A stretch of DNA of 27,496 bases, from IMG/VR virus record IMGVR_UViG_3300025674_000294, positions 1 to 27,496 of that record; one strand, given 5' to 3'. This DNA comes from a virus. Shown here piece by piece: positions 1-13,006 of the stretch. Below the pieces are notes generated by a model. That model was not told the DNA's origin and ran no database searches. It saw only the letters and a list, made by a program, of their open reading frames with translations. Each line of letters opens with the position of its first letter. Positions within the stretch are counted from its first letter, which is position 1. The translations under genes and the position numbers were made by a program.

Positions 1-1020
1 ACCTCATCAGATGGCAAAACATATGTAGAGGTTGTTGATGGTGTTCAATATGAAAAAGGGCTAAAAAATTCTCATTTTATTACTAACAAAGCTAGTAAGA
101 CTGCAGAATTAGAAAAGCCACTTGTTTTATTATTAGAATCACCAGTAGATACTATCAGACAGATACAGTCTGTGCTAGAGTATGTAATAAAAAACAATAA
201 ACCTTTGCTTATTATAGGCGACTTAGAACAAGGTGTTTTATCAGCTCTAGCTATGAATAAAACAAAGGGTAATATTAAAGTAAATGTGATTGATGCACCT
301 ACGTATGGTATAAACAAACAGCAAATGCTACAAGATTTATCTATGCTTACTGGTGCTACCATTATAAATGAAGATCTAGGCGATGATATGAATATGATAC
401 AGCCAGATCATTTAGGTACATGCTTGAAAAGTGTAACATCACATGAAGACACAATATTGCAAATAAATGAAAGCACAGAAGAAGTTAATCAAGTTATACA
501 GGATATAAAAGAAAAACTTTTAGAAGAAAAAAATCCTGGTAAACTTGTTAAGCTCGAAAAAAGATTAGCAATGCTATCAGCTAAAATAGCTATTGTAAAA
601 GTAGGTGCTAATTCAGAAATAGAATTAAAAGAAAAGACAGATAGAGTTGAAGATGCTATCTGCGCTACTAAAGCTGCTATTAAAGAAGGGATTGTTCCTG
701 GTGGTGGTATTGCTCTATTAAACGCTGCTACAAATATTAATGCTAAGTCTATTGGTGAAACAGTTTTACTAGAAGCTATTAAAGCACCTTATAAAACAAT
801 ACTTGAAAATGCAGGTGTTGACAACGTAGAAACACCCGTTAGAAAAGGACAAGGCTACAATGTGGTTACAGGAAAAATGGTAAATATGATCAAGTCAGGT
901 ATTATAGATCCACTACTTGTCACCAAGAGCGCTCTTCAAAATGCAGCTTCTGTAGCAACAACAATATTGTCTACTGATTGTGTAATCAATAATTTAAGAA
1001 TAGATGAAGGCAATAGGTAG
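1..1020 (+). CDS. groEL: Phage-encoded chaperonin GroEL (partial, 5' end outside window)
   Basis: The frame is open from base 1 to the TAG at 1018-1020 (339 codons), so the N-terminal equatorial part with the main ATP-binding loop lies upstream. What remains covers the apical, second intermediate and C-terminal equatorial segments of this 60-kDa ring chaperone. It aligns by eye with E. coli GroEL from about residue 185. Recognisable stretches are KPLLIIGD (209-232), QMLQDLSMLTGAT, the VEDA motif holding the Asp equivalent to catalytic D398, GGGIAL, and GIIDP-x3-TKSALQNAASVA. The apical FIT stretch is kept, but the positions of E. coli Y199 and Y203 read Leu and His. The hinge pair G374-G375 reads Ala-Lys (580-585). 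It ends in NNLRIDEGNR, without the Gly-Gly-Met tail. groES follows with a 17-base overlap. Family assignment is near certain; its role in folding virion proteins is inferred. Confidence 0.95.
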   Translation, partial: TSSDGKTYVEVVDGVQYEKGLKNSHFITNKASKTAELEKPLVLLLESPVDTIRQIQSVLEYVIKNNKPLLIIGDLEQGVLSALAMNKTKGNIKVNVIDAPTYGINKQQMLQDLSMLTGATIINEDLGDDMNMIQPDHLGTCLKSVTSHEDTILQINESTEEVNQVIQDIKEKLLEEKNPGKLVKLEKRLAMLSAKIAIVKVGANSEIELKEKTDRVEDAICATKAAIKEGIVPGGGIALLNAATNINAKSIGETVLLEAIKAPYKTILENAGVDNVETPVRKGQGYNVVTGKMVNMIKSGIIDPLLVTKSALQNAASVATTILSTDCVINNLRIDEGNR

Positions 1021-1264
1021 AAACTTAATAATAAACAAAATTAAAGAAGGAACCACCAAAACGAAAGGTGGTTTACTTCTTGCAGAAAACCAACGTGAAG
1101 ATATACGATATGTAAAAGCAGATGTAGTGTCTGTTGGAACAGAAGTAGCTGGTGTCAAAGAAACTGATACTATATACTTTGATCGTCATGCTGGTCATAA
1201 AATTGAAGTTGGTGATAATTCATATCACGTAATTAAATCTGCAGACGTTGTCGTTGTAGTATGA
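1004..1264 (+). CDS. groES: Co-chaperonin GroES (86 aa)
   Basis: Small lid protein of the GroEL chamber. The start at 1004 gives the standard N-terminus of the family (MKAIGRNLIINKIKEGTTKTKGGLLL). The mobile loop lies at residues 15-27, and G22-G23-L24-L25-L26 corresponds to the GGIVL GroEL-contact motif of E. coli. The C-terminal strand (VIKSADVVVVV) matches the ESDILAIV end of cellular GroES. At 86 aa it is slightly shorter than the usual 95-97, because the roof-loop region is compressed. It overlaps the end of groEL by 17 bases and its TGA stop overlaps the next start as ATGA, so the three genes are probably translationally coupled. The order groEL-groES is reversed relative to bacterial operons, which argues against a recent copy of a host operon. 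Confidence 0.93.
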   Translation: MKAIGRNLIINKIKEGTTKTKGGLLLAENQREDIRYVKADVVSVGTEVAGVKETDTIYFDRHAGHKIEVGDNSYHVIKSADVVVVV

Positions 1265-1701
1265 GACTAGATGCTAGTGACATTAGAGAACTAAACCTAA
1301 TGAAGCACTATCGCATCATAAGAAAATGGGCTTGTAAAAACAACAATTTAAATGATGCAGATCTAGAACTTTTAATATATCTTGATTGTATAGATTTTTT
1401 TACTAAAAAAGATTTTGAAATGGGTGTATACTCATACAGTTGGGATAACCGCAGATGGAACAGGCTGTTAAAAGAAGGTTGGATAGTTGTATGGAGGCAT
1501 AGAAACAGGTCCACTCAGAAATACCACATATATAAAGTATCTTTCAAAGGCAAGCAATTAATAAGTAGAATATACAGGATAATGCTAGGCGAAGAAGATA
1601 TAAATACAGGTAGGCGTAATAAAATAATCAATGGCGATACGTATACTGATAAAGTTATGACAAAAGCCATTTATAACGTAAACAACGATAAAGATAGATA
1701 A
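1261..1701 (+). CDS. Winged-helix DNA-binding-like protein (146 aa)
   Basis: The protein has the layout of a MarR-type winged helix. An N-terminal helix with many basic residues (about 8-26) is followed by LNDADLELLIYLD (30-42), a likely recognition-helix segment (48-72, FTKKDFEMG to WNRLLKEGW) and a two-strand wing (73-94) that runs into VSFKGKQLISRIY, the usual return helix of MarR-like folds. The last 35 residues are polar and probably disordered. The start overlaps the groES stop as ATGA. No catalytic motif is visible. Similar proteins occur beside structural genes in Bacteroidota phages, so it could be a late-gene regulator or a small virion/packaging protein; the sequence does not decide this. 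The fold call is moderate and the function unknown. Confidence 0.6.
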   Translation: MRLDASDIRELNLMKHYRIIRKWACKNNNLNDADLELLIYLDCIDFFTKKDFEMGVYSYSWDNRRWNRLLKEGWIVVWRHRNRSTQKYHIYKVSFKGKQLISRIYRIMLGEEDINTGRRNKIINGDTYTDKVMTKAIYNVNNDKDR

Positions 1702-1702
1702 C

Positions 1703-2014
1703 ATGGAAGCACCATTAGAATTTAACGAAGGTCTTAAAAAAGCTTCAGCTGAAGGAAAACTAGATAATAATCCTAAGTTTAAAGCAGCTGTAGATTCAGC
1801 TCCAATTAAAATGATTAGTACAGCTATGCCGGGCGTAGATCCAATGACAGGTATGGTTCAACAAAATCAATTTGCACCATCACCAATTAATCCAACAGCA
1901 TTAGGTGGTTTACAAAACCAAATACCAAATATAGCAGGTGCAGCAGTTCCTGGTATGTATGATAGAGTATTACCTACACCTTTAAGTAAAAAAGCTTGTA
2001 AATATAAAAAATAA
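1703..2014 (+). CDS. Unknown small Pro/Ala-rich phage protein (103 aa)
   Basis: First of a run of six small genes. The ATG at 1703 lies one base after the preceding TAA. Residues 1-37 look helical and charged (FNEGLKKASAEGKLDNNPKFKAAVDSA). Residues 38-90 are rich in Met, Pro, Gly, Asn and Gln, with no predicted membrane segment (MPGVDPMTGMVQQNQF, PSPINPTALGG). The C-terminus is basic with a single Cys (SKKACKYKK). The Cys-Lys-Tyr-Lys tail recalls the CKY of the next gene and the FPYKK end of the 51-aa protein at 4237. I do not recognise the family. A minor virion or assembly role is only suggested by the location. Confidence 0.75.
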   Translation: MEAPLEFNEGLKKASAEGKLDNNPKFKAAVDSAPIKMISTAMPGVDPMTGMVQQNQFAPSPINPTALGGLQNQIPNIAGAAVPGMYDRVLPTPLSKKACKYKK

Positions 2015-2019
2015 TAATT

Positions 2020-2226
2020 ATGAATCACGATATTGAAAAAATACGTAAAAATCCTAAATTATCAGGACAAATAGGTGAAAATGCTATATGGGACGGACCG
2101 TTAGATAAAACTGGTTTTCCAATGGGTGTTGGAAACAGTAATGGTATTACAGGTATGCAAGTATCTAAATATCCTTGCAAATACGAAGCTGGACCAATAA
2201 CTCAAAAAGCTAAAGTTTACAAGTAA
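2020..2226 (+). CDS. Unknown small phage protein (68 aa)
   Basis: Short soluble protein with a charged start (IEKIRKNPKLSGQIGENAIWDGPLD) and a Gly/Asn-rich middle. Its basic C-terminus contains VSKYPCKYEAGPITQKAKVYK. No signal peptide, membrane segment or enzyme motif is visible. Its last base is the A of the next gene's ATG (TAATG), so translation of the pair is probably coupled. The Pro-Cys-Lys-Tyr element resembles the KACKYKK tail of the gene before it. Coding status rests on the tight packing and clean A-rich leader. Function is unknown. Confidence 0.72.
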   Translation: MNHDIEKIRKNPKLSGQIGENAIWDGPLDKTGFPMGVGNSNGITGMQVSKYPCKYEAGPITQKAKVYK

Positions 2227-2423
2227 TGTATACTCAGTTTAAAAGTCCATTTTCAAAAACAGGCAAAGGTTGTGCTGAATCTGAAGGTGGATCAGGTTGT
2301 ATTAAAAGAAGAGGTAATGAATATATTATCTTAAACAATAAAAAAGGTGGCGTGTGGAGAAGTGGTTTTGCATCTGAAGCAGAAGCAAAAAAAGCACTAT
2401 CTGCATATCACGCAAATAAATAA
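2226..2423 (+). CDS. Unknown small phage protein with KSP motif (65 aa)
   Basis: The N-terminus carries FKSPFSKTGKGC, a member of the short SP-containing motifs shared across this cluster. The rest looks like a compact domain: a Cys pair (16 and 25), a beta-hairpin-like stretch (IKRRGNEYIILNNKKGGVW) and a C-terminal helix (SEAEAKKALSAYHANK). The start overlaps the previous stop by one base. A different-frame ATG at 2347 lies inside this gene but is not the real start of the following one. I do not recognise a family. A small nucleic-acid-binding or virion protein is possible from the basic hairpin, but this is weak inference. Confidence 0.72.
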   Translation: MYTQFKSPFSKTGKGCAESEGGSGCIKRRGNEYIILNNKKGGVWRSGFASEAEAKKALSAYHANK

Positions 2424-2427
2424 CACT

Positions 2428-2823
2428 ATGGGTAAATTTTCTAGTTCATTTATGTATAAATCACCTTTAAATGGAGCTTATACTTCAGCTGCAGGTCAAG
2501 GATCAACTTATATGTCTAACAGAGAAGCTTTTCAGCAATTACAAAGTGATATTGTAGCAGGTGCTAAAGAAGGTGATAGAATTGAAGGAATTAATAAAGC
2601 AAAAAATGAATTTAAAAAATGGTATGCGAATAATCCTAATGCTACTAAAGAAGAAATAGAAGCAAAAAAAATAGCTTTAAATTTATTAACTCCTAAAGAT
2701 ACAAAAAATACAGAAGACACTCCTGTTGTTATGCTAGGTAAATGTCCTAAGGGTAAAGTGCGTAGTAAAATAAATAATAAATGTGTATCTAAAAAAGGTG
2801 CAGGAAAAGAATACGATAAATAA
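2428..2823 (+). CDS. Unknown protein with C-terminal two-cysteine motif (131 aa)
   Basis: The start at 2428 is preferred because it follows the previous gene by four bases and gives MGKFSSSFMYKSPLNGAYTS, containing the KSP motif of the cluster. An in-frame ATG at 2347 would overlap the neighbour by 77 bases and add a charged out-of-frame shadow. Residues 30-90 look helical (REAFQQLQSDIVAGAKEGD, INKAKNEFKKWYANN, KEEIEAKKIALNLL). Residues 105-123 read KCPKGKVRSKINNKCVSKK, with Cys106 and Cys119. This spacing and the CP-x-GK-x-R-x6-C pattern resemble the two-cysteine adaptor motif known from large DNA viruses. That resemblance is by eye only. Function is unknown. Confidence 0.75.
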   Translation: MGKFSSSFMYKSPLNGAYTSAAGQGSTYMSNREAFQQLQSDIVAGAKEGDRIEGINKAKNEFKKWYANNPNATKEEIEAKKIALNLLTPKDTKNTEDTPVVMLGKCPKGKVRSKINNKCVSKKGAGKEYDK

Positions 2824-2831
2824 TATATAAA

Positions 2832-3086
2832 ATGAAACTACATAAAGGACATTACGGAAAATATAGTGGAAACGCTAAATGGTCAATGGATCACGCTCAT
2901 ACTAAAGTTACTAAAGAAAATTATAAATCTACAGAGCGAGACGACGCTGCTCATATTAGCTATTTAAAACAAGATATTGACTATGATGCAAAACATGGTC
3001 ATAGCGACGAAAAAATGACTGCTGATGAAAAACATATTTCTAAATTAGCAGGCGATATGAAATACGATAAAAAACATCACAGTTAA
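2832..3086 (+). CDS. Small His/Lys/Asp-rich protein with internal repeat (84 aa)
   Basis: Ten of 84 residues are His. The C-terminal half is an internal duplication of a 17-residue unit: residues 41-57 and 68-84 align as HIS-x-L-x2-D-x2-YD-x-KH, separated by SDEKMTADEK. The spacing of His and acidic residues would suit metal binding or a charged coiled or disordered segment. There is no Cys, signal peptide or membrane segment. The leader (AATATATAAA before ATG) is A-rich with no Shine-Dalgarno sequence. The following gene is also His/Lys/Met-rich, so the two may act together. I do not recognise the family. Confidence 0.75.
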   Translation: MKLHKGHYGKYSGNAKWSMDHAHTKVTKENYKSTERDDAAHISYLKQDIDYDAKHGHSDEKMTADEKHISKLAGDMKYDKKHHS

Positions 3087-3103
3087 ACTTAAAAACTAAC
3101 ATT

Positions 3104-3526
3104 ATGCCTTACGGAAAAAAATCACCTGCAAAAATGGGACACAAAGACTCAGCTATGAAAATGGAGTCTGCAAAACAAGAAAAATACAATTTAATGCACG
3201 ATGATCCTATAGCTAAACACGGTAGCTGGATGTCAAAGCATTCAAAATCTGCTTTTCAAATGGGTCATGAATCTCCTGCTAAAATGCACGGCGGAGATCA
3301 TGTTGACCATACTGCAAAAGTAAAAGAACATGATAGAAAACAAGGTCTTTTAGATCCAAAAACAGGTGAAAGAAAAAAGAAACATACTTTTGACTATAAT
3401 TACATTAAAGATGAAAAAACTGGTGCAATAACAAGTAAAAAAACCGGTGAAAAATCTTTTGTAACAGCTAGCGGAAAAAAACTTCCTCTTGGTCCTGGTT
3501 CACCAGCAGGAAAGCACTGCATGTAA
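3104..3526 (+). CDS. His/Met/Lys-rich protein with SPAKM motifs (140 aa)
   Basis: Highly polar protein containing SPAKM twice (residues 7-11 and 57-61) and a degenerate third copy SPAGK (133-137). It has 11 His and 9 Met in 140 residues. The middle (GLLDPKTGERKKKHTFDYNY) and the segment IKDEKTGAITSKKTGEKSF look like basic, extended strands. It ends HCM. No transmembrane or enzymatic motif is visible. SP-A-K motifs of this kind recur in small unannotated proteins of marine phage contigs, where no function is established. Possible roles are virion-associated peptide or metal or nucleic-acid binding; neither is shown. Confidence 0.78.
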   Translation: MPYGKKSPAKMGHKDSAMKMESAKQEKYNLMHDDPIAKHGSWMSKHSKSAFQMGHESPAKMHGGDHVDHTAKVKEHDRKQGLLDPKTGERKKKHTFDYNYIKDEKTGAITSKKTGEKSFVTASGKKLPLGPGSPAGKHCM

Positions 3527-3559
3527 AATAAACAGATTAGGACTGTATAAACCTAGCCA

Positions 3560-3595
3560 AACATTAACATTAACATTAACATCAACATTAACATT
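3560..3595 (+). repeat. Six tandem AACATT hexamers directly abutting a start codon
   Basis: The unit AACATT occurs six times without gaps, the fourth copy being AACATC, and the last base touches the ATG at 3596. The same element appears once before the ATG at 3104 (CTAACATT-ATG), so the array looks like expansion of a natural leader. Because it occupies the ribosome-binding region, changes in copy number would alter leader length without shifting the frame. Confidence 0.9.
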
Positions 3596-3892
3596 ATGGC
3601 AAAATTTATTAAAATTAAAAGCGCTAATTTAAATGTTACTAACGTAACTGAACTTTTGTTTTCAGCTGATTCCATATCATATGTTCAGCAAGGTAATACT
3701 GCTGGTGCAGGTAGCCCAAACACTTCAACAGTGTTTTTTACAACAGGAAAACAAGTAACACTAACAGCTACTGGACAAGGAGCTACTATAACTGAAGCTA
3801 TAAACAACGCACTTACTGCTAACCCAGGAGGTGTTTTAGCTTTTGTATCTTTACCAAGTACAGTAGTAATAACAGCAATAGCTGTAGTTTAA
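3596..3892 (+). CDS. Beta-rich small virion-like protein, paralogue A (98 aa)
   Basis: Begins MAKFIKIK and ends with a run of small and beta-branched residues (LPSTVVITAIAVV), with Thr/Ala/Gly-rich strands between. It is a clear paralogue of the next gene: both have MAKFIKIK, an EL-x-F-x-AD-x-IS-x-V-x-QG block, a GK/S-x-VTL strand, and INNALTANPGGVLAFV followed by LPSTV. No signal sequence or enzyme motif is present. The compact all-beta pattern and the neighbourhood suggest a capsid decoration, fibre-associated or other minor virion protein. Its leader consists of the hexamer repeat. Family is unrecognised. Confidence 0.8.
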   Translation: MAKFIKIKSANLNVTNVTELLFSADSISYVQQGNTAGAGSPNTSTVFFTTGKQVTLTATGQGATITEAINNALTANPGGVLAFVSLPSTVVITAIAVV

Positions 3893-3922
3893 TTAAGTAT
3901 TAACATTTAAAATATTAAAAAA

Positions 3923-4234
3923 ATGGCAAAGTTCATAAAAATAAAAAAAGGAAATGTAACAAAATCTAACATTGGAGAATTAGTATTTGGTGCTGACCAA
4001 ATTTCTTTTGTTAAGCAAGGACCAGCTACTGGTGCTGCGGATGCTGACAATGTAACTCTTTTTCTAAATGACGGTTCAATTGTTACACTAGAAGACGCTG
4101 GTAATGCTGCTGCAGGACCTGCTTTAACATCTGGAATTAATAATGCTTTAACAGCAAATCCAGGTGGAGTTTTAGCTTTCGTAGATTTACCTTCTACAGT
4201 TTTAATCGACACAATAGCTGTAACACCAGCATAA
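3923..4234 (+). CDS. Beta-rich small virion-like protein, paralogue B (103 aa)
   Basis: Second copy of the tandem pair. It shares the first eight residues and the identical 16-residue block INNALTANPGGVLAFV with paralogue A, but differs over the middle (QGPATGAADADNVTLFLNDGS). Codons for the identical block differ at many third positions, so the duplication is old and the block is under protein-level selection. The leader is ATATTAAAAAA before the ATG, A-rich with no Shine-Dalgarno sequence. The likely role is the same as or complementary to its partner; a minor virion protein is the best guess. Confidence 0.8.
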   Translation: MAKFIKIKKGNVTKSNIGELVFGADQISFVKQGPATGAADADNVTLFLNDGSIVTLEDAGNAAAGPALTSGINNALTANPGGVLAFVDLPSTVLIDTIAVTPA

Positions 4235-4236
4235 TT

Positions 4237-4392
4237 ATGAAGTCTACAGGTTTAGGAGACGATATCGCAAAGTTCACTAAAGCTACAGGCATTAAGAAAA
4301 TGGTTGACACAATGAGCAAGGGACTAAACATCCCTTGCGGTTGTGAAGCCAGACAAGGAGCATTAAATAAAATGTTTCCTTACAAAAAATAA
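4237..4392 (+). CDS. 51-aa protein with CGC-x3-RQ-x2-LN-x2-FPYKK motif
   Basis: A short gene with ATG two bases after the preceding stop and TAA at 4390-4392. The product starts with LGDDIAKFTKATGIKKMVD, an amphipathic helix. A short linker leads to a C-terminal motif with Cys34-Gly-Cys36, Arg39-Gln40, Leu-Asn and FPYKK. I recall small phage proteins with a similar helix-CGC-LN-FP pattern in Bacteroidota phage genomes, all without assigned function. The Cys pair could bind metal, but only two Cys are present, so a dimeric site would be needed. Tight packing between two convincing genes supports real coding. Confidence 0.75.
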   Translation: MKSTGLGDDIAKFTKATGIKKMVDTMSKGLNIPCGCEARQGALNKMFPYKK

Positions 4393-4395
4393 TAT

Positions 4396-4701
4396 ATGGC
4401 TTTTAAATTAAACGCACCGTTTCCAATAAATAATACTCCGATATATCATGTTGATATGGAAGAAGGCGTAATGGGTAAAGCCAATAACAATGGCACAATT
4501 ATTATAAATAAAGACTTAGATCCTAAAATGCTTGATAAAGTTGTTAAGCACGAAATGGTTCATATAGATCAAATGAAACGTGGTGATTTAGATTACGACG
4601 ATAAAAACGTTTACTGGAAAGGTAAAGTTTATCCTAGAGACAAAATGAACGAAGGAGCAAAAAATCTGCCTTGGGAAGACGAGGCCTATAAAAATGCCTA
4701 A
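4396..4701 (+). CDS. Small HExxH zincin-like metallopeptidase (101 aa)
   Basis: Residues 52-56 are H-E-M-V-H, the zinc-binding and catalytic motif of zincins, in a helix KVVKHEMVHIDQMKRGDLDYD. Downstream, NVYWKGKVYPR forms a likely hairpin and LPWEDEAY (91-98) offers Glu94 or Glu96 as the third zinc ligand. No signal peptide is visible. At 101 aa it is a minimal domain. The gene starts three bases after the CGC protein and overlaps the holin start by eight bases. This could mean a lysis-associated peptidase that cuts peptidoglycan stem peptides, or a protease for virion proteins. Related small proteins occur in marine phages, usually as hypothetical or putative metallopeptidase. Confidence 0.72.
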   Translation: MAFKLNAPFPINNTPIYHVDMEEGVMGKANNNGTIIINKDLDPKMLDKVVKHEMVHIDQMKRGDLDYDDKNVYWKGKVYPRDKMNEGAKNLPWEDEAYKNA

Positions 4702-5152
4702 AAAAAAATTTAAAGATACTAAAGTCGGTCAGTTTTTAAGCAAAGCCGCACCAGGTATATTAGGAACTGTTGGTGATGTATTACCAGATCAAGGTTTATT
4801 AGGTGTAGTAAAAAACCTAATACAAAAAGAAGATCCGGTAGTATTGCCACCAGAAGATAAAGAAAAAGCTCTAAAATTATTAGAGCAAGATATGGTAGAA
4901 ATGCAAGAAATATCAAAGCGTTGGGATAGTGATATGAAGTCTGATTCATGGCTTTCAAAAAACACAAGACCAATGACGTTGATATTTTTAACTGTTTCTA
5001 TGGTATTTTTAATACTATTAGATAGTTTTGAAATAGATTTTAGCGTAGACTCAGGTTGGGTTGATCTTTTAAAATCACTATTAATTACCGTGTATGTAGC
5101 ATATTTTGGCTCACGCGGTGCAGAAAAATTTAAATCAATAAGTAATAAATAA
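4694..5152 (+). CDS. Holin-like membrane protein, three-TM GTA-holin type (152 aa)
   Basis: Domains in order: a basic N-terminus, a moderately hydrophobic helix (about 20-43), a charged helix (54-78, EDKEKALKLLEQDMVEMQEIS), the sequence DSWLSKNTRP, a first strong membrane segment (93-111) and a second (124-140) running into YFGSRGAEKF. The SWLSKN-x-RP followed by LLKSLLITVYVAYFGSRG is characteristic of the three-TM holin family first described for gene-transfer-agent release. Holins open the inner membrane at the end of infection. The overlap with the zincin suggests a lysis unit; I see no other lysin in the window. A membrane-anchored role other than lysis cannot be excluded. Confidence 0.7.
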   Translation: MPKKKFKDTKVGQFLSKAAPGILGTVGDVLPDQGLLGVVKNLIQKEDPVVLPPEDKEKALKLLEQDMVEMQEISKRWDSDMKSDSWLSKNTRPMTLIFLTVSMVFLILLDSFEIDFSVDSGWVDLLKSLLITVYVAYFGSRGAEKFKSISNK

Positions 5153-5157
5153 AAATA

Positions 5158-5658
5158 ATGGCAAATAATCAACCAAATAGTTCACTGTTTGTAGTTCCAA
5201 GTAACACAATAAACATACCACAACCTGGTATTTTAACAACTGGTACTAATTCAAGTGGAGGATCAAACAACTTGACAGATGCTGGTCAAAACTTTACACC
5301 TTCAGTAACTAACGCTAACGGTTATAATGTAACAGGTGGTATTGTTTATCAAAGTTATACAGGTGCTTTTCCAGCTGCAGTAAACACTGTATTAGGTGTA
5401 AATTCAGCAACTATTTTACAGATGGCAAATTCTACTGCTGCAGGTGCTTACAATATATATTCTCCAAATCAAGACGGTAAAACTTCTTTTACTTTATTTG
5501 TAGGAACTGGAGGAGCAGGATCTACATTAAGAGTTTTAACAGCTGCAGGAGACGATGTTACATTAACTAATCTACCTGATTCATCATTTGTTCCTTTACA
5601 AGTAGTAAGAATTTTTGCAACTGGAACAACGTGTAGCGAAATTTTAGCACTATACTAG
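5158..5658 (+). CDS. Gly/Thr/Ser-rich beta virion-like protein (166 aa)
   Basis: An all-beta composition with few charges and abundant Gly, Ser, Thr and Asn, typical of phage decoration or fibre-associated proteins. Late residues (about 140-166) read LPDSSFVPLQVVRIFATGTTCSEILALY. The VPLQVVRIFATGTT-x2-IL-AL ending resembles the closing strands of small phage structural proteins that form trimers or barrels. The product has no signal peptide. It lies between the holin and the tail fibre, five bases after the holin stop. The leader is AAATAAAAATA before ATG. The specific role is not identified. Confidence 0.75.
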   Translation: MANNQPNSSLFVVPSNTINIPQPGILTTGTNSSGGSNNLTDAGQNFTPSVTNANGYNVTGGIVYQSYTGAFPAAVNTVLGVNSATILQMANSTAAGAYNIYSPNQDGKTSFTLFVGTGGAGSTLRVLTAAGDDVTLTNLPDSSFVPLQVVRIFATGTTCSEILALY

Positions 5659-5850: not shown

Positions 5851-8800
5851 ATGGCAAATATAAAATTTTCAGCTTTTGCTACAGAAACAAATTCTGCTAA
5901 TGTAGATTTTCTTGTAGGTTATCAAGGCACAACAATGAAAAAAATAGCACCTGGTAATTTAGGTGGATATCCTTTCTTAATTGATGGTTCAGGATCATTA
6001 TATTCTGGTTTTGTACCTTCAGGATTATCAGGTAGTCCTTCTAAAAACACAACATTAGGTATAAATGCAGGAGCAAGTTTAACTACAGGATTTGAAAATG
6101 TTTACATTGGTTACAATGCTGGTAAAATAGGAACTACCGCAAACAGAAGAATAGCTATAGGTACAGAAGCTTATGCTAATGTTTCTACTGGTGGCCAATA
6201 TGGAATAAGTATTGGTTGGTATGCTGGTAGAAGTTCTACTTCAAATGAAGCCATTAATATAGGAAGAGGCGCAGGTGAACTATGTTCTGGTGCTGAAGCT
6301 ATTAATATAGGTAGAGATGCCGGTAGAGTTGTTATCTCTGGACCTGGAGCTGCAACAAACGTAGGATATAAATCTGGTTTCTCTCAAACTTCTGGGCAAA
6401 AAAATACTAATATAGGTTATGAAGCTGGGTATAGTAATACAACTAATACGTTTAGAACTTGTGTAGGTTATCAAGCTGGAAAATTAAATACTGGAACTGG
6501 TTGTACTTTTATTGGTCATTTTGCTGGTGGAGATAGAGCTAATGTTGAAGGAAGTAGTACAGCAGTAGGAAATGAAGCTGGAAGATATTGGGAAAGTGGC
6601 TCAAATACTGCACTTGGCGAAAATGCTGGTGCTTATGCTAATGGAACAAGTCGATATAATGTAATGGTAGGAAGAGATGCTATAGGTGGTGCTTTTGGTT
6701 CTAAATCAAACAATGTAGGAGTAGGATATAGAGCTGGATATAGTTTAACTTCTGGCGATAGTAATACTTTAATAGGAACTAATGCTGGAGATTCAATGAC
6801 TACTGGAACAAATAGTACAGCAGTAGGAATGGGTGCTTTATCTTCTTTATCAACTGGAGGTAATAATGTTGCAATAGGTAAAAATGCTTATTCGTCTGGT
6901 ACTGCCTCAAATAACGTTTACATAGGTAATGACGCTGGTACTTCTGCAAACACTGGTATATATCAAATAGGTGTAGGTGTTTCAGCTGGAAACAGTAATT
7001 CAGGTTCAAACAGTATTGCGATTGGTTGGTTTGCTAACAGAAATAACACAGCTAGTGGAACAATCGCAATAGGTCATCAAGCTGGTTATTCTCAAACTTC
7101 AGGAACAAATAATACAAGTATTGGTTATCATGCTGGATATTCTAATACAACTGGTGGTTCTCAAGTTTGTATTGGTTACGAAGCAGGTAAAAATATAACT
7201 GGTGGAGTTAATACATTCATAGGTTCTGGTTCAGCTTCTGGTGGTACTGGCGCTGGTTTTAATAACGTTGCAATTGGTCAAGGTTCTTTATATGCATTAA
7301 CTGGGGGTGCTGAAAATACTGCTATTGGTAGAATTGTTGCAAATAATCTTACAACAGGAAGTAGAAATGTTTGCGTTGGTTATCATGCCGGAGGTTCTAT
7401 TACAACAAGTCCAGATAATGTTTTTATTGGCCACCAAGCTGGTCGAAATTTTAATAATACAGGTAGTGATGGTAGAAATGTTGCTGTTGGTAACGCTGCT
7501 GGAAACGATTTAACTACAGGTTATAATAATACATTTTTAGGATATCAAGCTGGAGATTCAATAACAACGGGTGATAATAACATTGTAATAGGTTATCAAG
7601 CTGATGCTTCTGCAGTAGGTGTTAATAATGAAATAACTTTAGGTGATGCAAATATAACTTCGCTTAGAATACCAGGTTTACAATCAAGCGCTTCTAATGG
7701 TGATGTTTTAACTTATAATTCTTCTACTGGTAATATTACACTTCAAGCCGGTGGTGGTGGTGGTGCATCAAGTTTAAATGGTCTTTCAGATTGTTTAGTT
7801 GATACTGATTCTTTATATGTAGGTGAATCTCCAAGTAGTTTAAGTGGAAATCCACAAGGTAATACTTCACTTGGTATAGATTCTGGAGTAGCTTTAACAA
7901 GCGGTACTAATAATACTTTTATAGGTAATGATGCTGGGTTTGCTGCTACTACTACTACTAATAATGTTCTTATAGGTTTTCAAGCTGGTAAAGGAGTTAC
8001 AACTACTTCAAAGCAAAACAATGTAGCTATAGGTAGTGGAACTTTTGATATAGCTGCTGGTCAAAATTCTGTTGTAATAGGTTATCAAGCTGGTAGAGTT
8101 AGTAGCGTTACAAGTGGTGTTTATATCGGCTATCAAGCTGGTTGGGCAAATGCTGGTGCTAGTAATGTTGGTATAGGATACTTAGCTTTAAACGGAGGTG
8201 GTGGTGTTCATACTGTTGGTATTGGATATCAAGTTGCAAAAAGCAATACAGCTGCTGGTCATACTTCAATAGGTTACCAAGCTGGTTTTTCTCAAACTTC
8301 TGGAGCTAAAAATACTAACATTGGTTACCAAGCTGGTTATTCTCAAACTACTGGTTTTAACAATACTACATTAGGTTATGAAGCTGGGAAATCTTTATCA
8401 ACTGGAGATAGAAATGTATTAATTGGATCTGATGCTGGAATAAATATAACTGATGGTCAAAGAAATATAGTTATAGGTGATGATGCTGGAGATGCAATAA
8501 CAAGTGGTCAAAGAAACATTTTACTAGGTTCACCAGCTGGTGGTGCTTTAACAGATGGTCAACAAAATATAGTACTTGGTACTTTTGCTTTAAATTCAGC
8601 AACAAGAGACACTGGAACTATAGGTATAGGTCATGGATGTTTACAAAATCAAAATGCTGGTTTTGTTTCTGGTTTTAACACTGTTGTTGGTCATTTTGCT
8701 GGTGGAAGTATAACAACTGGTCAAAATAATACTATAATTGGAAATGGTGCAGATTCATCGTCTGCGACTGTATCAAATGAAATTACTTTAGGTAATTCGT

Positions 8801-9135
8801 CTATATCAACTTTAAGATGTCAAGTAACAAGTATTACTGCTTTATCAGATAAAAGAGATAAAACTAATATAGAAGATTCTAATTACGGCTTAGAACTTGT
8901 TGAAAAATTAAAACCAGTAACATTTGATTGGAACACAAGAGACGGTGCTAAAGTTGGTGTTAAAGATTTAGGTTTTATAGCTCAAGATCTTCAAGAAGTA
9001 GATAATGATTACTTAAAATTAGTATACGAAAATAATCCTGAAAAACTTGAAGCTACATATGGTAGATTAATACCTGTTTTAGTAAAAGCAATCCAAGACT
9101 TATCAGCAAAAGTAACAGCGTTAGAAAATGCTTAA
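5851..9135 (+). CDS. Tail fibre/adhesin with beta-roll repeats and S74 self-cleaving chaperone (1094 aa)
   Basis: Residues 1-45 (MANIKFSAFATETNSANVDFLVGYQG) resemble the virion-attachment start of phage fibres. Residues about 65-600 and 670-975 consist of repeats of roughly 10-20 residues with a core such as NIGYQAG followed by S-x-TTG or T-SG and N/NN. This is the head-type beta-roll pattern of YadA/Hep_Hag trimeric adhesins. The last 96 residues form a Peptidase_S74 intramolecular chaperone: Ser999-Asp-Lys-Arg-Asp-Lys1004 gives the Ser/Lys dyad, followed by LKPVTFDWN and LGFIAQDLQEV. A C-terminal coiled coil (LIPVLVKAIQDLSAKVTALENA) completes trimerisation. In this family the chaperone cuts itself off just before the Ser, which would leave a 998-residue mature fibre. 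It is the likely receptor-binding protein. Confidence 0.9.
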   Translation: MANIKFSAFATETNSANVDFLVGYQGTTMKKIAPGNLGGYPFLIDGSGSLYSGFVPSGLSGSPSKNTTLGINAGASLTTGFENVYIGYNAGKIGTTANRRIAIGTEAYANVSTGGQYGISIGWYAGRSSTSNEAINIGRGAGELCSGAEAINIGRDAGRVVISGPGAATNVGYKSGFSQTSGQKNTNIGYEAGYSNTTNTFRTCVGYQAGKLNTGTGCTFIGHFAGGDRANVEGSSTAVGNEAGRYWESGSNTALGENAGAYANGTSRYNVMVGRDAIGGAFGSKSNNVGVGYRAGYSLTSGDSNTLIGTNAGDSMTTGTNSTAVGMGALSSLSTGGNNVAIGKNAYSSGTASNNVYIGNDAGTSANTGIYQIGVGVSAGNSNSGSNSIAIGWFANRNNTASGTIAIGHQAGYSQTSGTNNTSIGYHAGYSNTTGGSQVCIGYEAGKNITGGVNTFIGSGSASGGTGAGFNNVAIGQGSLYALTGGAENTAIGRIVANNLTTGSRNVCVGYHAGGSITTSPDNVFIGHQAGRNFNNTGSDGRNVAVGNAAGNDLTTGYNNTFLGYQAGDSITTGDNNIVIGYQADASAVGVNNEITLGDANITSLRIPGLQSSASNGDVLTYNSSTGNITLQAGGGGGASSLNGLSDCLVDTDSLYVGESPSSLSGNPQGNTSLGIDSGVALTSGTNNTFIGNDAGFAATTTTNNVLIGFQAGKGVTTTSKQNNVAIGSGTFDIAAGQNSVVIGYQAGRVSSVTSGVYIGYQAGWANAGASNVGIGYLALNGGGGVHTVGIGYQVAKSNTAAGHTSIGYQAGFSQTSGAKNTNIGYQAGYSQTTGFNNTTLGYEAGKSLSTGDRNVLIGSDAGINITDGQRNIVIGDDAGDAITSGQRNILLGSPAGGALTDGQQNIVLGTFALNSATRDTGTIGIGHGCLQNQNAGFVSGFNTVVGHFAGGSITTGQNNTIIGNGADSSSATVSNEITLGNSSISTLRCQVTSITALSDKRDKTNIEDSNYGLELVEKLKPVTFDWNTRDGAKVGVKDLGFIAQDLQEVDNDYLKLVYENNPEKLEATYGRLIPVLVKAIQDLSAKVTALENA
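6046..8763 (+). repeat. Two blocks of short beta-roll repeats within the tail fibre gene
   Basis: By hand I count about 31 copies of the x-[IVL]-G-x2-A-G core in block 1 (6046-7620) and about 18 in block 2 (7858-8763). Spacer lengths vary from about 10 to 25 residues. The blocks are separated by a non-repeat linker including a Gly-rich stretch (AGGGGGASS). At nucleotide level many copies share ATAGGTTATCAAGCTGG-like sequence, so slippage or recombination between copies is plausible. Confidence 0.88.
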
Positions 9136-9744: not shown

Positions 9745-9971
9745 TGGACTCTGTTATAAGAAAAATCAGTATTGGATCTGATTATAAAAACGATGCTATG
9801 CATTATTCTGTAGGACAACAAGTCTATGGAGGTCATGAAATAGCATATATTTTATTTGATGAATCTGATAGTTCTTATAATATACATATAAAGAAAAACA
9901 ACGAGGTATTGCCATGGAAGAAGTTTAACTCTAACATGGCTGTATCTGTTGAGTATGATTTAGAGTATTAA
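9744..9971 (+). CDS. Conserved-type small phage protein (75 aa)
   Basis: Compact predicted alpha/beta protein. IRKISIGSDYKNDAMHYSVGQ is followed by EIAYILFDESDSSYNIHIKK (a strand-turn-strand) and a C-terminal WKKFNSNMAVSVEYDL. The start SVIRKISIG-x-D-x-K-x2-AMHY-x-VGQ is a pattern I recall from hypothetical proteins next to phage packaging genes, but I cannot name a family with a known function. It is coupled on both sides by one-base stop/start overlaps (9744 and 9971). Confidence 0.75.
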   Translation: MDSVIRKISIGSDYKNDAMHYSVGQQVYGGHEIAYILFDESDSSYNIHIKKNNEVLPWKKFNSNMAVSVEYDLEY

Positions 9972-10597
9972 TGAAGAGTCTATATGATTTTATCGTTGAA
10001 CCAGTTGGCGATAAATACAGCAATACTGTTAATATAGGTGATAAAAAATTAGTTGTAAATACTAAAATAGAAAACTGGAAATTTGTTAATAGAGTTGCTA
10101 AGGTTATTGAAACACCAGCAGCTTTTTCTACGCCTATTAAGAAAGGTGCTTTAATAATCATACATCAAAATGTATTTAGAACATTTTATGATATGAGAGG
10201 TGAAAAGAAAAAAAGCAGATCTTATTTTAAAGATGATTATTATTTCTGCGCAGTTGACCAAATTTATTTATATAAAAATAAAAACAATTGGAAGACTATA
10301 AACAATAGATGCTTTATAACACCTATCAAAAGCAAACAAGATCTAACGCTTGATAAAGAAGCAAACCTTATTGGTATATTAAAATATGGTAATAAGTCCT
10401 TAGAAGAGCTTAATATCAACCCAGGTGATCTTGTAGGATTTACTCCTAACAGTGAGTGGGAGTTTTTAGTCGATGATAAACGACTTTATTGTATGAAATC
10501 AAATGATATTGTAATTAAGTATGAATACCAAGGAGACGAAGAAGAATATAATCCAAGCTGGGCAGAGAGCAGTAGAGGAGTTGATCAAGGTAGCTAA
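9971..10597 (+). CDS. GroES-like-fold phage protein, possibly a double co-chaperonin domain (208 aa)
   Basis: The N-terminal half starts with a strand (YDFIVEPVGDKY) and contains VNRVAKVIETP, then IKKGALIIIHQNVFR and YYFCAVDQIYLYKN. This follows the GroES order of core strand, G-x-V strand, GD-x-V-like turn and a closing x-DI strand. The C-terminal half repeats it: LIGILKYG, then NPGDLVGF (151-158), a D-x2-RLYCMKSNDIVIKYEY end (168-186), very like GDIVIF and LIMSESDILAIV of GroES. I infer two tandem chaperonin-10-like folds, comparable in idea to T4 gp31, though the mobile-loop GGIVL motif is not visible. The last 20 residues, after the fold ends, are overprinted by the next gene. Alternatives are an unrelated beta-barrel virion protein. 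Confidence 0.6.
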   Translation: MKSLYDFIVEPVGDKYSNTVNIGDKKLVVNTKIENWKFVNRVAKVIETPAAFSTPIKKGALIIIHQNVFRTFYDMRGEKKKSRSYFKDDYYFCAVDQIYLYKNKNNWKTINNRCFITPIKSKQDLTLDKEANLIGILKYGNKSLEELNINPGDLVGFTPNSEWEFLVDDKRLYCMKSNDIVIKYEYQGDEEEYNPSWAESSRGVDQGS

Positions 10598-10796
10598 AGA
10601 AGCTATTGTTGATTCAGATGATGATATATCAGCTGATAGACTTAAAAATGCTGCAGCTACAAAAAAGCTTGCTATATTCGATGCGTTTGAAATACTTAGT
10701 CGTATCGAAGAAGAAGAAAACTTATTAAACGAAAAACCAAAAGAAGTTAAAGAAGAAAGAACTTTTAAAGGTTTTGCAGAAGGTAGATCTAAGTAA
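10521..10796 (+). CDS. Terminase small subunit-like protein (91 aa)
   Basis: Lies immediately before terL and overlaps it by one base (TAATG). The helical sequence IIQAGQRAVEELIKVAKEAIV, then DISADRLKNAAATKKLAIFDAFEILSRIEEEE, is a short charged helical bundle as expected for a DNA-recognition or oligomerisation domain. The tail is basic (ERTFKGFAEGRSK). No other ATG is available, and the conserved-looking GQRAVEELI begins at about 10560, so the gene really overlaps the preceding one by 77 bases in another frame. Position and size support a TerS, which selects phage DNA for packaging. No classical HTH is obvious, so a different TerL-associated function is possible. Confidence 0.6.
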   Translation: MNTKETKKNIIQAGQRAVEELIKVAKEAIVDSDDDISADRLKNAAATKKLAIFDAFEILSRIEEEENLLNEKPKEVKEERTFKGFAEGRSK

Positions 10797-13006
10797 TGTA
10801 CGAACAAAGTTTATATAAAGTTTTAAAAGACCATATTAAACCTAAAGTTCTTAAACGAATGAACAGGTATAATAAATGGGAATATGGATACAATAAAGAA
10901 CACGATATTGTTGTAATAAGTAAAACAGGTAAAATAGGTGAAGTATATGAAATACAAAACCTAAAAATAGCTTTACCTCTAGAAAATAAAACATATAAGT
11001 TTGAAACAGATAAATGGGAATACACACCGTATCCTAAAGTTTTAAAAAAAATTAAATCTGTTTTTGACTGGGAACAATATCCACTAGATTTTAAAGAAAA
11101 ATGGTATGATTACATCGATGAGGAATTTAATAGAAGAGAGCAAGGTTTTTGGTTTTATAACAAAGGCAATGCTACTTATATTACTGGTACTCATTACATG
11201 TACTTGCAGTGGAGTAAAATTGATGTCGGTCAACCAGACTTCCGTGAATCGAACAGATTATTTTACATATTCTGGGAAGCTTGTAAGGCCGATCCTAGAT
11301 CCTATGGAATGTGTTACCTTAAGAACAGACGTTCTGGGTTTTCCTTTATGGCGTCCGGGGAGTGCGTTAATATGGCAACAATATCAAGCGACTCTAGGTT
11401 TGGGATATTATCAAAGTCTGGTCCTGATGCCAAGAAGATGTTTACCGACAAGGTGGTACCGATATCGGTTAATTACCCTTTCTTTTTCAAACCAATTCAG
11501 GACGGAATGGACCGTCCAAAGACAGAACTTGCGTACAGAGTACCCGCAACGAAGTACACGCGTAAGAAACTCGAGACGAACCAGCAGTTACAAGAGATCG
11601 ACGGTCTCGACACCACGATCGATTGGAAAAACACGGGCGACAACTCGTACGACGGTGAGAAGCTCAAGCTCCTCGTCCACGATGAGAGCGGCAAGTGGGA
11701 GCGTCCGACGAACATCCTCAACAACTGGAGGGTCACGAAAACCTGCTTACGATTAGGTAGTAGAATTATAGGTAAATGTATGATGGGTTCAACTAGCAAC
11801 TCATTAGACAAAGGTGGTGATAACTTTAAAAAACTATATAATGACTCAGATGTTACACAACGAAACGCGAATGGACAAACTCGCTCTGGATTATATAGCT
11901 TGTTCATACCTATGGAATGGAATTACGAAGGATACATTGATTCTTATGGCATACCTGTCTTCCAAACACCAAACAAACCTATTGAAGGACCACAAGGTGA
12001 AATTATAGATTTAGGTGTAATAGAATATTGGGATAACGAAGTAGAAGGATTAAAGCAAGATCAAGATGCTTTAAATGAATTTTACAGACAGTTTCCACGC
12101 ACTGAAAAGCATGCGTTTAGAGATGAATCAAAAGAGTCTTTATTTAATTTAACTAAAATTTATGAACAAATAGATTTTAATGAAGATTTAAGAAATTCTT
12201 TAAATTTAACACAAGGTAGTTTTCAGTGGGAAAACGCAAAACAAGATACAAAGGTTATATTTGTTCCTAATAAAAATGGTAGATTTACTGTTAGTTGGGT
12301 TCCTCCTGTTCATTTGCAAAACAAAAGATATAGAAAAAATAATACAAATTATCCTGGTAATGAGCATATAGGCGCTTTTGGATGTGACCCTTATGATATA
12401 TCAGGAACTGTTGATAAAAGAGGTTCAAAAGGATCTTTACATGGTTTAACAAAGTTTTCTATGGAAGACGCACCGTCTAATCATTTCTTTTTAGAATATA
12501 TAGCTAGACCTCAAACAGCAGAGATATTTTTTGAAGATGTACTTATGGCCTGCGTATTTTATGGTATGCCTATATTAATTGAAAATAATAAACCAAGACT
12601 TTTATATTATTTAAAAAAACGTGGTTACAGAGGATTTTCAATGAACAGACCTGATAGAAAATATAATAAACTATCAATAACAGAAAGAGAGTTAGGTGGT
12701 ATACCAAACTCAAGTGAAGATATAAAGCAAGCTCACGCTTCAGCAATAGAAACATATATAGAAACATTTGTAGGTTTAAAAGAATCTGGATATGGTGATA
12801 TGTATTTTCAAAAAACGTTAGAAGACTGGGCTAAATTTAATATTAATAATAGAACACGACACGATGCTTCTATTAGTTCTGGTTTAGCTTTAATGGCTTG
12901 TAATAAGCATAGGTATTCACCAGTAAATAAAACAAAATTACAACCTGTTGATTTAGGAATTAAAAGATATGACAATAGGGGAACTTCATCAAAAATTATA
13001 AGTTAA
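10796..13006 (+). CDS. terL: Terminase large subunit (736 aa)
   Basis: Packaging motor and nuclease. The N-terminal ATPase has a degenerate Walker A at 176-183 (K-N-R-R-S-G-F-S), similar to the R/K-x-GxS variants in terminases. Walker B is LKLLVHDE, with Asp296 and Glu297. NWRVTKTCL and GSRIIGKCMMGST follow as coupling elements. The C-terminal RNase H-like nuclease is supported by GAFGCDPYD (Asp531), ILIENN (Glu596) and TRHDAS (Asp690). At 736 aa it is longer than T4 gp17 (610) because of an N-terminal extension of about 100 residues. The portal gene starts at the next base after its stop. Bases about 11281-11760 have unusual composition but stay in frame. It works with the upstream TerS-like protein and the portal. 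Confidence 0.92.
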   Translation: MYEQSLYKVLKDHIKPKVLKRMNRYNKWEYGYNKEHDIVVISKTGKIGEVYEIQNLKIALPLENKTYKFETDKWEYTPYPKVLKKIKSVFDWEQYPLDFKEKWYDYIDEEFNRREQGFWFYNKGNATYITGTHYMYLQWSKIDVGQPDFRESNRLFYIFWEACKADPRSYGMCYLKNRRSGFSFMASGECVNMATISSDSRFGILSKSGPDAKKMFTDKVVPISVNYPFFFKPIQDGMDRPKTELAYRVPATKYTRKKLETNQQLQEIDGLDTTIDWKNTGDNSYDGEKLKLLVHDESGKWERPTNILNNWRVTKTCLRLGSRIIGKCMMGSTSNSLDKGGDNFKKLYNDSDVTQRNANGQTRSGLYSLFIPMEWNYEGYIDSYGIPVFQTPNKPIEGPQGEIIDLGVIEYWDNEVEGLKQDQDALNEFYRQFPRTEKHAFRDESKESLFNLTKIYEQIDFNEDLRNSLNLTQGSFQWENAKQDTKVIFVPNKNGRFTVSWVPPVHLQNKRYRKNNTNYPGNEHIGAFGCDPYDISGTVDKRGSKGSLHGLTKFSMEDAPSNHFFLEYIARPQTAEIFFEDVLMACVFYGMPILIENNKPRLLYYLKKRGYRGFSMNRPDRKYNKLSITERELGGIPNSSEDIKQAHASAIETYIETFVGLKESGYGDMYFQKTLEDWAKFNINNRTRHDASISSGLALMACNKHRYSPVNKTKLQPVDLGIKRYDNRGTSSKIIS
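11281..11760 (+). other. GC-rich, differently coded patch within terL
   Basis: By hand count about 233 of 480 bases are G or C (48-49%), and 128 of 240 in 11521-11760 (53%). Samples just downstream give 19 of 60 (11821-11880) and 10 of 60 (12121-12180). Codons shift to CTC, GTC, ACG, TCG and AAC, rare elsewhere in the window. The reading frame is uninterrupted and the patch spans Walker A to just past Walker B. The 3' edge is abrupt at about 11750; the 5' edge is gradual. Confidence 0.88.

Follow-up and report, generated by a model that had tools for sequence, protein, structure and literature searches.

An array of six small, lysine-rich genes at positions 1703-3526 of the virus record IMGVR_UViG_3300025674_000294 encodes proteins some of which begin with a short peptide, hereafter the tag, that recurs as a module on many otherwise unrelated proteins of related phages. 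The window analysed is the complete IMG/VR virus record of 27,496 bases, which is probably a fragment of a larger genome. The six genes are real and mostly conserved, and the tag is a protein-level module carried on non-homologous bodies and confined to late-strand arrays. At about even odds (a probability of roughly 0.5), the array comprises late small proteins carried in or attached to the virus particle, many of them recruited by the tag, which would then be a virion-cargo tag; the virion location, the partner of the tag and the action of the cargo are proposed here from sequence and genomic context. An earlier note on this DNA, made from its letters alone, had suggested co-packaged or virion-internal peptides, and this idea has emerged as the best supported reading, though not as a demonstrated one.

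The window phage is a member of an uncultivated marine, podovirus-like group of Bacteroidota phages. For its terminase large subunit (TerL), at least 600 relatives are found in viral_contigs and 87 in phage isolates, including Flavobacterium elemo phages, Cellulophaga phi38:1 and phi40:1 (Pervagoviridae), phi19:3 (Pachyviridae), Maribacter Panino, Tenacibaculum Gundel and MW202828 (63%); an identity of about 37% is the figure given for phi40:1 and its close relative phi38:1. The host phylum, Bacteroidota, is taken from these TerL relatives.

The motifs KSPF, KSPL and SPAKM, picked out by the earlier note, are the visible part of a larger modular N-terminal tag that ends in S-P-[L/F] and whose own existence is near certain. 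It is found in two forms, tag A, M[SN]SPFQ(K/Q)xF(S)AKSPL (in summary MSSPFQxxFSAKSPL), and tag B, MAFKMKG(F/W)(S/T)PF or MAFKMKG..SPLKQ (in summary MAFKMKGxSPF). A scan of viral_contigs (2.9 million contigs) with the two tag DNA patterns returned 60 and 72 stretches. The loci with a tagged open reading frame (ORF) also encode another homologue from the clade in 45/45 cases for A and 59/62 for B, so that the patterns return mainly this clade; a further 22 loci had no tagged ORF by the test applied. Being selected by the tag, the pattern loci are used for modularity only and never for enrichment. For all counts ORFs were called mechanically (ATG starts, at least 35 or at least 38 amino acids (aa), longest-first overlap removal) with no gene finder, and the fetched loci overlap in part. 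No earlier report of such a tag was found in a limited literature search.

It is evident from the bodies behind the tag that it behaves as a module. Loosely tagged ORFs (533, some of them spurious, being short or antisense) form 117 body clusters, of which 16 carry tag A, 75 tag B and 6 both. Moreover, in five body families the tag is A in one contig and B, or the B-like NPL..SPL of L147, in another, the bodies of the swapped pairs matching at E-values of 8e-20, 5e-17, 3e-46, 8e-20 and 3e-26. Tag A appears over 39 distinct contexts in 34 nucleotide and 25 amino-acid versions, and tag B over 26 contexts in 24 nucleotide and only 4 amino-acid versions, some of the residues in these counts being set by the search patterns; what is conserved in the tag is the protein, not the DNA. 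Contigs tend to use one type, with A only in 42 pattern loci, B only in 63 and both in 2, and with 15, 22 and 0 among loci not chosen by the tag (about 1.4 with both expected, not significant). A search for the bodies inside large proteins of the clade (572 ORFs of at least 420 aa) gave 0 matches, the body called c79 had no match in phages, and PADLOC, run on 90 tagged or related proteins, gave no convincing match and one weak one (E=3e-4). At L315, many small proteins of the FKMKG type stand on either side of GroEL.

Enrichment of the tag, measured on loci chosen by other means, is strand-specific. In k-mer counts over 2,096 ORFs, with proteins of at most 260 aa, SSPF occurs in 12 clusters and SPLN in 13, against 0 and 2 in one shuffle, both near the N-terminus of differing proteins. 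Nine of the sixteen long records were fetched entire and serve as nine whole relatives (the G-series), in which [KSTNRHG]SP[LF] is seen 24 times in 12,199 array residues against 1.5 in shuffles, and on the opposite strand in 3 of 342 genes (47,378 residues, 3.95 expected), which is chance level. Within the first 35 residues the motif is present in 15/84 array genes against 14/581 other genes of at most 400 aa (Fisher p=2e-7), and against 14/258 when same-strand genes alone are taken (p=0.001); 13 of these 14 non-array genes belong to a second cluster, again of small late genes, the remaining one being a 35-aa ORF. A broader definition of the tag yields 41 tagged late-strand genes of at most 400 aa and none among the 342 of the opposite strand. 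A transmembrane (TM) segment is predicted in 0/41 tagged and 35/301 untagged same-strand genes (p=0.013), and lysine content is 15.4% in the tagged and 10.7% in the untagged. Further, over the loci not chosen by the tag, 171 of 2,919 ORFs bear the motif (14.3 in shuffles), and at least half of the members bear it in 10 of 159 clusters (0-2 over 30 shuffles), one of the ten, on the minus strand of L050, resembling an antisense ORF.

The second tagged cluster (G007, G005, G009, G001; L133, L142, L143, L146) lies beside genes that on inspection are ribonucleotide reductase-like and an M15 peptidase, and it holds DUF6321, DUF5872-like and other small basic families. A C-terminal motif is also shared: in loci not chosen by the tag, C[KS]YK[KR] stands at the end of 11 among 2,919 distinct ORFs, where shuffles give 0.25; such ends are seen on different proteins, in slot 1 of L184, L227, L086, L100, L031 and the window, and also in L045, L049 and L058. 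DNA binding of the histone-like SPKK kind was considered and set aside, the conserved form being SP[LF] and not SPKK.

In the window itself, six consecutive lysine-rich genes of the lengths claimed earlier (65-140 aa) are indeed present as ATG-started, almost abutting ORFs (Table 1), gene 4 being taken from its ATG at 2428 and not from the upstream GTG at 2347 given in the ORF list. The six proteins are basic (lysine 10.7-18.6%, isoelectric point 8.7-9.7). The maximum 19-residue hydropathy is at most 0.61 in 6/6, so that none has a membrane segment, and a profile scan of the six against Pfam and PHROG gave no family at E<0.01, in agreement with the earlier claim on both counts. A 2-cysteine adaptor domain, considered for the C-terminus of gene 4, found no support in Pfam at E<0.1. 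Nor are the six paralogues of one another, the sole blastp pair at E<1 being genes 4 and 5 (E=0.45). The named motifs (KSPF, KSPL, two SPAKM, KACKYKK and PCKY) sit where they had been placed and exceed expectation over 2,000 composition shuffles, with SP[LFA] seen 5 times against 0.35 (a count reached by 0/2,000), SPAKM 2 against about 0, CKY 2 against 0.04 (reached by 0.1%) and KSP 3 against 0.30 (reached by 0.3%), p-values that are approximate because shuffling preserves composition only. The orthologue of gene 3 in L034 starts MAYIQNNPLSRHSSPLL, and the tag-like part of gene 4 is followed by a module, xAFQxLQxDIxxG, which follows SPL in relatives too. Orthologues of gene 5 in L083, L090 and L101 carry an SPA(A/K)KHxF-like string, C-terminal or internal, and gene 6 has 39 related loci, in which relatives have up to five copies of [K/S/H..]SP[LFMA].

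Table 1. Features of the window discussed in the text
Feature	Position	Strand	Remarks
GroEL	1..1020	+	cut by the left end of the window
GroES	1004..1264	+	ORF, synteny
146-aa protein before the array	1261..1701	+	phrog_17028 (function unassigned)
Gene 1	1703..2014	+	103 aa; variable first slot; C-terminal end KKACKYKK
Gene 2	2020..2226	+	68 aa; most conserved member; PCKY at 2173-2184
Gene 3	2226..2423	+	65 aa; N-terminal tag MYTQFKSPFSK at 2226-2258 (holds KSPF)
Gene 4	2428..2823	+	131 aa; tag-A-like MGKFSSSFMYKSPLNGAY at 2428-2481; KSPL
Gene 5	2832..3086	+	84 aa; His/Lys-rich
Gene 6	3104..3526	+	140 aa; SPAKM at 3122-3136 and 3272-3286; C-terminal GSPAGKHCM
Two tandem paralogues	3596..4234		58% identity; family end NxALTANPGGV; one to several copies in relatives
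51-aa protein	4237..4392	+	no tag; phrog_32048 (2e-4); omega 0.04-0.36; neighbour of the tagged set
Small HExxH metallopeptidase-like protein	4396..4701	+	phrog_10499 (4.4e-10); DUF6782 (5e-4, below cut-off)
Tail-fibre-like protein	5851..9135		1,094 aa; short glycine-rich repeats; C-terminal Peptidase_S74 chaperone domain (2.2e-13)
Second GroES-like protein	9971..10597		208 aa; phrog_13932 co-chaperonin GroES (6.5e-26); two genes upstream of TerL; annotated likewise in relatives
TerL	10796..13006		terminase large subunit

The array is embedded in a conserved gene order. After GroEL, GroES and the 146-aa gene, relatives have a variable slot, filled by gene 1 in the window, and then gene 2, another variable set of genes, genes 5 and 6, the 3596/3923 family, the genes of the 51-aa protein and the metallopeptidase, that of the w4694 membrane protein and finally the tail and packaging genes with the terminase. 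The 146-aa gene (w1261) is present in 52 loci; 49 of them have gene 2 within the next few genes, and 45 have GroES on the other side, six of the seven exceptions beginning at a contig edge. The co-occurrence with groEL/groES proposed as a check in the earlier note is therefore a real synteny of the clade, yet one that holds for every gene there.

The ratio of nonsynonymous to synonymous substitution (omega, or dN/dS; pairwise Nei-Gojobori against the closest distinct relatives, with synonymous divergence saturated in some pairs) is 0.06-0.13 for gene 2, 0.05-0.14 for gene 5 and 0.07-0.53 for gene 3 (0.10, 0.10, 0.07, 0.33, 0.53), and 0.38-0.71 for gene 1 and 0.23-0.65, from partial alignments, for gene 6. 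Genes 2, 3 and 5 are under purifying selection, and genes 1 and 6 evolve faster. The earlier note had taken a lack of conservation, or dN/dS near 1, as the sign that would speak against its proposal; no such sign is seen for genes 2, 3 and 5. For gene 4, tblastn gave no full-length homologue in the fetched related loci. Gene 2, with the conserved pattern GENxIWDGPLDxxGxPxGxGSSSGITGM..GPITxxAK, was confirmed in at least 598 of at least 599 pattern-matching stretches of viral_contigs; in 84,980 bacterial and archaeal species genomes it appeared in 5 stretches, all on contigs of metagenome-assembled genomes under assorted names, which is what misbinned phage would give. Among 50,697 phage records, phi40:1 included, tblastn found no match to genes 2 and 6, and only matches at E>=0.08 to gene 4, the search there covering these three genes.

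Several observations link the tagged proteins to the virion, each modest, and jointly they favour the particle. Three small proteins of phi40:1 and phi38:1, gp069, gp077 and gp080, are encoded upstream of the terminase, in the interval before the lysis and terminase genes, and are annotated in phi40:1 as 'structural protein' from experimental tandem mass spectrometry (MS/MS); gp069 and gp080, read from phi38:1, are lysine-rich. Another phi40:1 virion protein by MS/MS, gp099, has its family in phi38:1, elemo, Panino and phi19:3 (the same search did not find it in L122 or L127), and two of its 18 homologues, in L306 and L310, carry an N-terminal SP[LF]NFA, beginning MRNKEDSPLNFAG and MSEEKKGSPFNFAL; a tag-B gene immediately precedes each. 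In L361, the body behind tag B has matches to phrog_220, 'minor head protein and DNA pilot' (2.5e-12), and to phrog_7595 (3.9e-16). Homologues of this body without the tag are found close to the small terminase gene of Roseobacter phage CRP-3, a few genes away, and within a putative portal protein of Aphanizomenon phage CL131. The 'THLMA' body has an untagged homologue between the N4 gp69- and gp68-like genes of Littlefix.

A number of results weigh against virion cargo. No virion has so far been found to contain a tagged protein, and 16 of the 18 gp099 homologues are without the tag. The three MS/MS proteins of phi40:1 are untagged and, as far as tested, not homologues of the six, so that the resemblance to them is one of position and character only; among the nonredundant members listed for six window families (blastp clusters at E<=1e-4) none came from L122-L127, in clusters that predate the fetching of L124-L128 and hence exclude phi38:1. 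The whole relative G002, with the same chaperonins and TerL, has the tag in 0/53 same-strand genes, and G004 in only 2/60, so the tag is dispensable. Tag-like N-termini in the window are limited to genes 3, 4 and 6 and the metallopeptidase, with none on genes 1, 2 and 5. Finally, a cluster test that asks for the motif in any member is not clearly above shuffles (17 against 4-15), since large clusters have many chances.

The alternative that survives best, which we nonetheless consider unlikely, is a localisation or docking signal acting outside the virion, whether on a host component, on the lysis machinery or at an assembly site, with the tagged proteins as late accessories of takeover or lysis. 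The arrays do hold an M15 peptidase, PAP2 and membrane proteins as well, the bodies are mostly without assigned function, and the failure to detect a tagged protein in a virion fits this reading too; on the other side, the same-strand proteins of membrane type lack the tag, and the few functional hints indicate head and packaging genes. Less probable still is that the N-termini are shared without any binding function, as a relic peptide copied from the 5' end of a neighbour or kept for codons that favour translation. Copying predicts the tendency to one tag type per contig that is seen, and genes 1 and 6 do evolve fast, but residues stay fixed while synonymous codons vary, the tag is kept where the bodies share only about 30-60% identity, and one type per genome would equally fit a dedicated receptor. 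Delivery of small clients or adaptors to the neighbouring phage GroEL/GroES, raised in the earlier note and suggested by the frequency with which GroES and gene 2 flank the 146-aa gene, is very improbable, given that the second tagged cluster is far from GroEL in most whole relatives, that elemo, Panino and MW202828 have GroEL and GroES with no array tags (1/399 ORFs tagged in cultivated relatives with chaperonin genes), that adaptors should occur wherever, and only where, a phage chaperonin does, a pattern that the tagged proteins do not follow, and that such short, probably unstructured proteins (as in the gene 2 model) would be poor folding clients.

Returning to virion cargo, the tag would be an extended peptide that binds a putative partner in the growing head, such as the scaffold, the portal or the inner capsid surface. 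The body behind it would be free to vary, so that many different basic proteins could be loaded; the cargo might condense DNA or balance its charge, or act in the next host cell. Gene 2 is conserved and yet predicted to be unstructured (AlphaFold predicted template modelling score 0.16), and may encode a linear binding peptide.

Phage T4 offers a likeness. Its internal proteins are described in PMC3012670 as a highly diverse set whose common feature is only a short capsid targeting sequence, and whose lysines contact the packaged DNA. The tagged proteins were likewise found to be diverse, small and basic, with only a short N-terminal sequence in common. They differ in that the phage type is another, no sequence relation is known and the tag is found mainly in a different, uncultivated clade; moreover, their place in the virion is a proposal from sequence and context. 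In T4 the targeting sequence is removed by the prohead protease. Neither a prohead protease nor cleavage of the tag was seen here, in a window that is a fragment, and ten window proteins compared with Pfam gave no protease family except the Peptidase_S74 of the tail fibre, in a scan confined to the window. In crAss001, a podophage of Bacteroidota, many proteins are kept within the capsid and the tail until they are ejected, but its cargo differs, consisting of a few large proteins (60-277 kDa), and no common N-terminal tag is reported in the excerpt of the source (PMC10172136). Among known families, some tagged bodies belong to the small basic viral proteins of DUF6321 (1e-9 and 1.9e-11, above cut-off) and some resemble DUF5872 (0.009); a DUF5754-like protein (0.06) was also scanned, and the same body is found without a tag in other phages.

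A wider form of the proposal, held tentatively and at somewhat less than even odds, is that an interchangeable tag of two types loads dozens of unrelated small proteins into the virions of an abundant marine clade of Bacteroidota phages, a metalloprotease and possibly anti-defence factors included, in a T4-like manner of independent origin and with a much larger repertoire. If the tag does mark virion cargo, the delivered proteins of the clade could be called from their first 15 residues, dozens of families without assigned function would become candidate injected effectors or DNA-condensing proteins, and the internal-protein strategy of T4 would have a second, independent case. Even with another destination, a swappable tag shared by so many phage proteins of unrelated sequence would amount to a new kind of sorting signal, open to direct test.

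Of the neighbouring genes, the metallopeptidase begins MAFKLNAPF (4396-4422), a tag-B-type N-terminus that is nearly invariant in the family; residues M1, F3, K4, P8, H52, E53 and H56 are conserved in A3. Its structural model (predicted local distance difference test 78) has weak matches in the PDB to the folds of small zinc peptidases (E>=0.15). The 51-aa protein, said earlier to echo the tails of the array, is real and conserved, with 130 tblastn matches in the fetched loci, but its FPYKK end differs from the CKYKK motif. AACATT is repeated six times at 3560-3596, directly upstream of the ATG at 3596, and shorter AACATT leaders precede other starts; these repeats are possibly a translation or promoter element, and promoter-like sites in 900-5200 showed no excess over shuffles. 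Extra array genes of L105, at 3200-3502 and 6735-7202, encode by inspection a methyltransferase-like fragment and an ATP-grasp-like protein (R2K_2/ATP-grasp). L052 (7208-7648) has a GldL_N match (Pfam 2.4e-23), assigned by inspection, with a weak spanin match in PHROG; GldL is a part of the gliding and type 9 secretion motor of Bacteroidota, here a phage-encoded candidate.

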